Assembly: GCA_016214745.1 (NCBI GenBank)
Contig: JACRNW010000017.1
Span: 1 to 43,589 of the forward strand
DNA length: 43,589 bases
Direction: 5' to 3'
From: Candidatus Falkowiibacteriota bacterium
GTDB taxonomy: Bacteria; Patescibacteriota; Patescibacteriia; XYB2-FULL-38-15
Numbering within the stretch: position 1 is the first letter of the stretch; the number at the start of each line of letters is the position of its first letter. Below, piece after piece: positions 25,339 through 26,795 of this stretch. The notes under the pieces are model-generated. The model was given only the letters and a program-made list of their open reading frames with translations, ran no database searches and was not told where the DNA came from. Both the position numbers and the translations under genes were made by a program.

Positions 25339-25367
25339 TTGACATTACTGCCCCAAAATATTATAAT
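25339..25367 (+). promoter_or_regulatory. Consensus promoter for the tRNA-Ser cluster
   Basis: Perfect TTGACA (25339-25344), a 17-base spacer and perfect TATAAT (25362-25367). Transcription would start near 25374, 17 bases before the first tRNA. It is the strongest promoter in the window, as expected for stable RNA. Confidence 0.85.
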
Positions 25368-25390
25368 TTGTGAATATACGAAATCATCAT

Positions 25391-25481
25391 GGAGAGGTGG
25401 CCGAGTGGCTTAAGGCAGCGGTTTGCTAAACCGTTATACGGTCGAAAGTCCGTATCGAGGGTTCGAATCCCTCCCTCTCCG
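25391..25481 (+). tRNA. tRNA-Ser (anticodon GCT)
   Basis: 91 bases with acceptor GGAGAGG/CCTCTCC, an anticodon loop TTTGCTAAA giving GCT (codons AGC/AGU), a long variable arm (ATACGGTCGAAAGTCCGTAT) and discriminator G, all diagnostic of tRNA-Ser. The T-arm reads GAGGGTTCGAATCCCTC. No CCA is encoded. Confidence 0.97.
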
Positions 25482-25590
25482 TTTTGTACAAGACTACCAT
25501 TTTTGTGGTAGGCTTGGACAAATTGAGGGTTGGTACGAGAAGCCTCTCACCGCTACGCCTTCGGGACAGCTTCGAATCCCTCCCTCTCCG
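25482..25590 (+). repeat. tRNA-tail repeat unit A (hairpin plus copy of tRNA-Ser(GCT) 3' end)
   Basis: Immediately after tRNA-Ser(GCT). A hairpin (25484-25499 with 25506-25521, 16 positions, two mismatches) opens with TTGTACAA and closes with TTGGACAA. Then comes ATTGAGGGTTGG, a variable region, and TTCGAATCCCTCCCTCTCCG (25571-25590), an exact copy of the last 20 bases of the upstream tRNA. The GAGGG can pair with CCCTC of the tail copy. Confidence 0.85.
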
Positions 25591-25611
25591 TTTTTGAAAA
25601 AAATTTAATTT

Positions 25612-25698
25612 GGAGAGGTGGCAGAGTGGACTATTGCACCGGTCTTGAAAACCGGAGTCCTCGCAAGGGGACCGTGAGTTCGAATCTCACCCTCTCCG
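25612..25698 (+). tRNA. tRNA-Ser (anticodon TGA)
   Basis: 87 bases with the same acceptor pairs as the first (GGAGAGG/CCTCTCC), anticodon stem CCGGT/ACCGG around loop CTTGAAA giving TGA (codons UCA and wobble partners), a long variable arm (GTCCTCGCAAGGGGAC) and discriminator G. The T-arm GTGAG/CTCAC differs from that of tRNA-Ser(GCT). No CCA is encoded. Probably on the same transcript as the first tRNA. Confidence 0.97.
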
Positions 25699-25822
25699 TT
25701 TGTACAAAGCAATCGCTTTGGCGATTGGTTTGTCAAATTGAGGGTTGGCGAGAGGAATCACACACCACAAGTCCGTTGCGGCTGGCTTCGCACCGAGGAG
25801 CTTTCGAATCTCACCCTCTCCG
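25699..25822 (+). repeat. tRNA-tail repeat unit B (hairpin plus copy of tRNA-Ser(TGA) 3' end)
   Basis: Starts right after tRNA-Ser(TGA). The hairpin at 25699-25737 has stem sequence different from unit A but keeps pairing (CAATCGC with GCGATTG) and the TTGTACAA/TGTCAAA ends. Then ATTGAGGGTTGG, a variable region, and TTCGAATCTCACCCTCTCCG (25803-25822), an exact copy of the last 20 bases of tRNA-Ser(TGA). Confidence 0.85.
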
Positions 25823-25948
25823 TTTGTACAAATTTGCCGCTGTTGCGGCAGATTTGGACAATTGAGGGTCTGGAAAGAATCCACACCCCGTAAACCCTTT
25901 GCGGCGCCGAGGATAGCACCGAGGAGTTTTCGAATCTCACCCTCTCCG
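25823..25948 (+). repeat. tRNA-tail repeat unit C (second copy after tRNA-Ser(TGA))
   Basis: Tandem to unit B. The hairpin 25824-25840 with 25845-25861 pairs at 16 of 17 positions (counting one G-T) with yet another stem sequence (TTTGCCGC with GCGGCAGA). ATTGAGGGT follows, and the unit ends with the same TTCGAATCTCACCCTCTCCG at 25929-25948. The stop codon of the convergent gene lies inside this tail copy. Confidence 0.85.
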
Positions 25949-26795
25949 TTTTTCTTCGCTATTTTTAAACAGGCCTCGCTCCGCGCGGAGCCTCTTTTTT
26001 TGCGCTTCTTCCTCTGGCTTACCCAACTCATCTTCCGTGGCAATCGGGACGGGGGTGTCTCCGAAATAAACCTCAAGTTTCTTAATCATATTCGGCTTGC
26101 CTATCGCCTGTTCGATCAAAGGCGTACGGTGCCACTTTAACCAAACTGTTTGTTCTAAAACATCCTCTCCCTTACCGTCAAGATACTCCTTCTCTTTTTT
26201 ACTAAATAATGCCGACATTTTTGTTTTCATGACATCAATTGCCAAATCCAAATTGACCGCATCACTAACTTTCCAATCAGTTTTCAATAACTTTTTAAAG
26301 GTAGATTGCCTTGGTTTTATACTGCTCAACACTCTGCTTGCGCTTTTCTTTATCCTCAGTTCTTTTTTCCTTTTCACCTTGAACTCCCTTCGCCTCCCGA
26401 GCATTATCGCCGGAATCGATAACAATACTTTCCGGAACGTTTTCTCGCCCATTTTCCTCAACCCATTCTTCTTTTTGTTCTTCAAGTTTGAGGCGGCGCT
26501 CTTTAACTTTTTCCAGGTCTTGCGATACTTGCGGCGGCTCACTTTCGGAAGAAAAACCAAGCTTCGCTCGTTCTGCTTCATAATCCTGTAATTGCTGCTC
26601 AAGTTTTCCAACGAGCGCGCTATCAGTCTCTATCTGTTTATCAACGGACATCAGCTGTTCTTGTTTATCTTCAATTGTTTCAACTGTTTCCTTGGTTTCA
26701 TCTTCAGGAATATTTTCCGGCGTCATCTCTTGATTCTCTGATATTTCTTGCTCCGCCTCATGTAATGATCGTAACGCTTCGCTTTCTGTTTCCAT
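25937..26795 (-). pseudogene. Coiled-coil protein gene split by a +1 frame change
   Basis: Two overlapping frames make one plausible protein of about 285 residues. The first part runs from the ATG at 26795 (good ribosome-binding site, ATAGGGGGC) to TAA at 26295-26297: an acidic, Glu/Gln-rich coiled coil (about 165 residues). The second part, one base forward, continues as KKLLKTDWKVSDAVNLDLAI through EVYFGDTPVPIATEDEL to the TGA at 25937-25939 and looks like a real folded domain. The frames meet at CTT TAA A, which resembles the prfB +1 frameshift site but has no well-spaced Shine-Dalgarno element. It may be a mutation, a sequencing error or a programmed shift. No family recognised. It follows comF by 28 bases. 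Confidence 0.6.

Follow-up and report, generated by a model that had tools for sequence, protein, structure and literature searches.

Short gene-less units behind tRNA genes of a Candidatus Falkowiibacteriota genome as probable integration footprints in the T-loop

The short repeat units located downstream of tRNA genes in this Candidatus Falkowiibacteriota genome are probably att-type footprints left by small mobile DNA, with recombination taking place in the T-loop of tRNA and tmRNA genes. Site-specific integration is suggested by the fixed 5′ edge in the T-loop, the variable 3′ edge, the regenerated tRNAs, the ancestral tails displaced downstream and the tmRNA gene as a target. The units were noticed in the window, that is, the whole 43,589-nucleotide stretch of contig JACRNW010000017.1, to which all coordinates without a contig label refer. 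The genomes compared were drafts and, for the most part or entirely, MAGs; they comprised the present genome (G000; 923 kb, 906 kb of which were scanned), its sole congener, Patescibacteria isolate MM_PC_MetaG.mb.12 (G001), so that within the genus the comparison is with a single genome, and a member of another genus of the same family (G002), in which 32 of 47 tRNA hits were readable.

In the window, a σ70-type promoter (TTGACA-17-TATAAT, 25339–25367) with a 12/12 consensus match precedes a pair of tRNA-Ser genes, and all features described for this pair lie on the + strand. The first gene, tRNA-Ser(GCT) (25390–25482; ARAGORN and Rfam RF00005), has its T54–N73 tail at 25462–25481 and is followed by unit U1 (25482–25590), which consists of hairpin 1 (TTTTGTACAAG...CTTGGACAAA, 25482–25522), a pre-core (TTGAGGGT..., a degenerate tail/T-arm copy) with a short core variant ending in CGCCTTCGGGACAGC (25523–25570), and an exact copy of the Ser-GCT tail (25571–25590), identical to 25462–25481 and part of an identity block that extends to 24 nt. 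The U1 core variant is also present behind tRNA-Leu(GAG), and a variant behind tRNA-Asn, in G001. The second gene, tRNA-Ser(TGA) (25611–25699; ARAGORN and Rfam; tail 25679–25698), is followed by two tandem units. In U2 (25699–25822), a hairpin 1 nearly identical to that of the Asp unit of the same genome (25699–25737) precedes a pre-core and core (...CACAAGTCCGTTGCGGC...GCACCGAGGAGCT, 25738–25802) kept in the Gln, Asp, Trp and other units, whereas in U3 (25823–25948) hairpin 1 (25823–25861) precedes a pre-core and core (...CCCTTTGCGGCGCCGAGGATAGCACCGAGGAGTT, 25862–25928) in the long core form common to other Patescibacteria; their exact tail copies (25803–25822 and 25929–25948) are both identical to 25679–25698. 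Thus, the layout described in the earlier note, namely units of about 110–125 bases (one after GCT and two after TGA) that end in exact 20-base tail copies, was recovered, with sizes of 109, 124 and 126 bp for U1, U2 and U3 and all three copies identical to tRNA positions 54–73.

The earlier note had also observed that the three hairpins differ in stem sequence and nevertheless pair. This proved correct, since the stems fold strongly and hairpin 1 covaries across a set of eight homologous sequences from two genomes. In these homologues (62% mean identity), 91% of cells were paired, compared with 74% after shuffling. Compensatory cells numbered 25, spread over 12 of 18 pairs, whereas shuffles reached no more than 16; slid versions were only 33–47% paired. 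Since hairpin 1 covaries, it may have a role as a folded site or as RNA. Whole-unit folding z-scores were −3.4 for U1, −1.8 for U2 and −3.7 for U3. A second stem between GAGGG(T) and the (A)CCCTC of the tail copy had been proposed as well; it appears when the three Ser units are folded, whereas over 13 units the own tail paired just marginally better than swapped tails (p = 0.08), and the segment is more readily read as a direct, degenerate tail/T-arm copy (p = 0.001).

A terminator scan of the + strand found the interval between the tRNAs and the units free of terminator-like sites, and it did not recognise hairpin 1 as an intrinsic terminator. The first terminator-like site past the promoter lies at 25978–26005 and is a consensus match only, of a kind about equally frequent by chance. 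Considering the perfect promoter upstream and the position of this site, tRNA-Ser(GCT), U1, tRNA-Ser(TGA), U2 and U3 may form one transcript, as judged from sequence signals. The units could therefore be a functional structured or spacer RNA of tRNA transcripts, in which hairpin 1 and the tail copy would serve 3′ processing or termination, or would divert tail-binding enzymes as a decoy; the covariation, the arrangement of promoter and terminator-like site and the presence of exact tail copies in most type A units speak for this alternative, which is nonetheless unlikely. The lack of a clear pairing preference for the own tail speaks against it, as does the absence of an Rfam family for the units, for which matches were weak or lay on the tRNAs. 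The analogue in layout named in the earlier note, which called the units unrelated to it in sequence, is the set of repeats downstream of the tRNA in the E. coli tyrT operon; each of them includes a duplicate of the 3′ end of that tRNA, and they are known for rtT RNA. In both cases, each tandem repeat behind the tRNA contains a tail copy and is probably co-transcribed with it. However, tyrT is one operon, whereas here around a quarter of the tRNAs are involved and both empty sites and displaced ancestral tails are found.

The same short architecture was recognised in about 16 units. Units of type A have the order tRNA tail, hairpin 1, pre-core, core and exact tail. In 11 of 13 type A units, the first position of the identity block is exactly T54, and the 3′ end is variable, for a total of 18–32 nt; the inconstant length and variable 3′ edge distinguish it from the target-site duplication of a transposon, including casposon-like ones. 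The core of about 41 nt reads CCCCGTTT...CCGAGGnnnGCACCGAGGAGC, and its main form closes with GCACCGAGGAG and two further bases ahead of TTC, while the shorter variant of U1 ends in GGGACAG. The pre-core contains ATTGAGGGT, which is present in U1, U2 and U3, and represents a degenerate direct copy of the local tail/T-arm (p = 0.001 in a permutation test on hand-delimited segments, as used for both unit types). Two other origins were considered and rejected. Derivation of the core from a tRNA, with the Val anticodon arm as the leading candidate, did not rise above shuffles (13/200). The unit as a degenerate version of its own tRNA with acceptor stem (5′ similarity, p = 0.014; own-tail duplex, p = 0.08) was dropped because the inverted/direct test favoured a direct tail copy in type A and an inverted one in type B.

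As the earlier note had proposed, further tail copies were sought beside other tRNA genes, in a survey that took in nearly all tRNAs. At a threshold of at least 80%, own-tail copies were found downstream of 11 of 41 tRNAs in G000 and 11 of 38 in G001, where a test against unrelated tails gave a chance expectation of about 0.03. In the 906 kb of G000, no tail copy of at least 18/20 occurred outside another tRNA or the 400 nt downstream of one. A whole-genome DNA search and a six-unit profile identified homologous units in G000 also behind tRNA-Asp, Gln(CTG), Trp and Asn, and in G001 such units follow Ser(GGA), Ser(GCT), Ser(CGA), Trp, Leu(GAG) and Asn. None of the 32 readable tRNAs of G002 was followed by an own-tail copy, and this complete absence in a relative from another genus is a point against a functional RNA.

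Type A is not the only insert at this site, where unrelated type B units and double hairpins also occur. The type B core, of about 100 nt and unrelated to that of type A, is flanked by one inverted and one direct tail copy (p = 0.003) and was found at Lys(TTT), two Gly genes and the tmRNA gene in G000, and at fMet and Tyr in G001. At the tmRNA gene (G000:C10:113235–113617), the insert follows within about 250 nt downstream, with inverted and direct tmRNA tail copies that include a 26-nt exact block. Copies of the type B core also lie between palindromes at G000:C5:~2043 and C16:~65360, with no tRNA there. The occurrence of a different core behind tmRNA further weakens the case for an RNA of tRNA transcripts. 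In addition, an older tRNA half, displaced and interrupted by a double hairpin at TTC|GA, was observed for Cys, Ala-TGC, Gln-TTG, Ser-GGA and Val-CAC (L043, L047, L058 and L007 in G000, L066 in G001); these double-hairpin inserts of about 30–40 nt occupy TTC|GA in the T-loop of the decayed second tRNA copy that lies behind the intact tRNA. In G351 (L155, ~1500), a tRNA-Met is followed by 99-bp tandem repeats, all of which contain a tRNA 3′ half with a small palindrome in the anticodon-loop region. The type B arrangement could result from snap-back synthesis, and together with the plain G351 repeats and their fMet tails it is compatible with a model in which local duplication in tandem, or errors of replication through template switching at hairpins, generated the copies without a dedicated recombinase. 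This model is very improbable, given that one core recurs at different tRNAs and in different genomes, that the 5′ edge is fixed at T54 and that displaced tails are ancestral at several loci.

The congeners differ in the presence of units at Asp, Ser-TGA, Ser-CGA and Leu-GAG, which argues against the RNA alternative. The Asp locus is filled in G000 and empty at the orthologous locus of G001, orthology being indicated by a downstream protein 47% identical (E = 6e-116) and by upstream DNA 78% identical, and the junction of the empty site, CCCG|CCATTAA, is identical to the distal junction found at the filled one. Similarly, a type B insert at Tyr in G001 corresponds to a clean empty site in G000, the same tRNA coming next in both, and the type B insert at Lys in G000 corresponds to a clean empty site in G001; at Ser(TGA), G000 carries two units and G001 none. 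Additionally, at seven loci in four genomes, the displaced tail was closer to the intact tRNA of a relative (17/18 to 21/21) than to the current tRNA. Since the displaced tail equals or nearly equals the intact tail of the relative and the current tRNA carries another, these alignments indicate that at the seven loci the tail is exchanged rather than merely duplicated. On the basis of the T54 start, the variable 3′ end, the clean empty sites and the ancestral tails, site-specific T-loop recombination fits better than an RNA gene.

The att sites attL and attR of tRNA-integrating islands are accompanied by partial tRNA genes (PMC9897764, which cites Williams 2002). The units share several features with such footprints, namely a fixed crossover edge with a variable far edge, empty orthologous sites (Asp, Tyr, Lys and Ser-TGA) and an incoming tail that replaces the resident one (seven loci); an element-encoded integrase beside the site is absent, the units being without genes. 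As at the attL/attR of islands, an intact tRNA is accompanied by a partial 3′ copy, the incoming DNA restores the 3′ end and the crossover side is fixed (PMC9897764). In contrast to those islands, here there is a footprint only, with a common 41-nt core and a covarying hairpin, several times per genome. Likewise, the ssrA islands of Dehalococcoides show tandem 20-bp repeats of the ssrA 3′ end, a conserved 15-bp motif just upstream and insertion in the T-loop (PMC3146451), and the present units resemble them in the tandem 3′-end repeats of a tRNA-like gene, the upstream motif and the T-loop insertion. However, the Dehalococcoides islands measure kilobases, come with a CcrB-like serine recombinase and target one gene, whereas the inserts described here are gene-less, measure about 110–150 bp and occur at many tRNAs and tmRNA. 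Partial tRNA genes originating from integration are common in prokaryotes (PMC9897764), and the displaced 3′ halves of Cys, Val, Leu and Ala, which start at the anticodon loop or T-loop, resemble classic att remnants. Such observations would agree with the units being internal-deletion remnants of large tRNA-integrating islands, from which kilobases were lost and attL and attR left close together. This origin is improbable, considering that about 16 units share one short architecture and that no large tail-bounded island and no distant tail copies were found in the 906 kb of G000.

Recurrence in relatives, on which the earlier note had made its reading depend, was observed, with units in G001 and G383 and core plus tail in other Patescibacteria. 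A strict core pattern was scanned across 84,980 species, with GCACCGAGGAG counts compared with reversed controls. The core occurs in several copies in five more Patescibacteria-like genomes (G381–G385), the count of five in G384 being modestly above its three reversed-control matches, and core plus tail are also present in G261, from another family of the same class, which was the one real extra core case in a class-wide model search that mainly returned weak tRNA-tail matches. In these at least six further Patescibacteria, the core often lies immediately before a displaced tRNA tail (directly in G261 and G381–G384, with a double hairpin between in G385), and the displaced tails after the core are exact at Ser(CGA) and Tyr in G383 and at Leu(CAG) in G261. 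In one locus of G383 (L250:1650–1992), a group I intron lies upstream of a tRNA 3′ half, which is followed by a hairpin, the core and an exact tail copy. Other strict-pattern matches came for the most part from unrelated genomes, chiefly of high GC content, and the few of these inspected were without tRNA association. The core was also found away from tRNAs, in REP-like repeats (mostly in G381) and at gene ends, where long inverted repeats specific to each locus flank it (G382), which again disfavours an RNA belonging to tRNA transcripts. In G381 and G385 (L239, L247, L259, L264, L268–L271 and others), it substitutes part of one arm of the REP-like GTCATTCCCGCG.AGGC...AATCCAG, and such repeats are often paired with a nearby intact inverted copy. 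In E14_metabat.bin.105 (L173, L177, L203 and L214), the core is likewise found at gene ends between long, locus-specific inverted repeats of about 25 bp, and a T/A-rich hairpin lies inside.

REP/BIME palindromes are moved by RAYT (Y1) transposases. The units resemble them as small palindromes in many copies, and the core of G381 sits in REP-like repeats. G000 encodes two RAYT-like Y1 proteins (C10:92051–92389 and C10:32345–32668), and REP-like palindromes (GGAG...CGCCCTTTAGGGCG) lie on both sides of the first gene. However, RAYT mobilisation was rejected, as the palindromes by both RAYT-like genes differ from the unit hairpins, and a search of G001 gave no Y1 transposase match. Three Xer/XerA-like tyrosine recombinases are encoded in G000, on other contigs; G001 has equally many footprints, yet one PF00589 match only. 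No link was found between the units and the tyrosine recombinases or RAYT-like proteins of G000, and neither the recombinase nor a mobile form of the units came to light. Hairpin 1 resembles an integron attC site in being a folded hairpin of variable sequence and conserved pairing, but it is accompanied by neither an integron integrase nor a cassette array: the G000 recombinases fell far below the integron-integrase cut-offs, and the units contain no cassette genes. No carrier of core plus tail was found in viral, phage and plasmid collections, where the viral pattern matches turned out to be coding DNA or ordinary tRNA-Trp.

In the proposed mechanism, a site-specific recombinase would act at T54, and the crossover would keep the tRNA whole because the incoming DNA provides positions 54–73. 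The former 3′ end, displaced downstream of the insert, would constitute the tail copy, the insert would comprise hairpin 1, the degenerate tail copy and the core, and the junction core|TTCGANTCC would correspond to attR. Successive events would generate tandem units, such as those behind Ser-TGA; an identical incoming tail would leave an exact copy, whereas a different one would leave the ancestral tail displaced. The units of about 110 bp would move as such and in trans, not as shrunken remnants, and the hairpin would be part of the recognised site. Several points stand against integration footprints. Large islands that shrank at random would not leave so uniform an architecture of about 110–125 bp; a 125-bp circle is an unusual substrate; the pairing of hairpin 1 is kept despite sequence change, which a dead footprint would not require; there is no recombinase gene in any unit and no carrier record, and the core is also present in REP-like repeats and at gene ends. 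What is unusual here is the small size without genes, the number per genome and the common hairpin and core. As a tentative and rather doubtful extension, the units may be gene-less mobile elements of Patescibacteria, of about 110–125 bp, whose covarying hairpin is a folded recombination site and which are moved in trans into any tRNA or tmRNA T-loop, so that tails are exchanged and acceptor and T-stems repeatedly replaced.

The earlier note had left three options, a structured non-coding RNA, a processing decoy and minimal elements spreading by recombination at the tRNA tail. The last is the best supported, through the empty sites, the ancestral tails, the T54 edge, the unrelated inserts and the tmRNA target; the structured RNA retains the covarying hairpin and the location of the units between a promoter and a terminator-like site, but the core off tRNAs and the missing Rfam match count against it. 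These findings advise caution before such units are annotated as pseudo-tRNAs or as novel families of RNA. To our knowledge, mobile elements in Patescibacteria are poorly known, and in two ultra-small genomes roughly one tRNA gene in four, together with the tmRNA gene of one of them, is scarred at one precise spot. If confirmed, site-specific integration in the T-loop would represent a mechanism by which reduced genomes have the acceptor stems and 3′ ends of their tRNAs replaced, and possibly a minimal, att-only class of mobile DNA, for which core|TTCGANTCC would provide a simple tracing signature across Patescibacteria.
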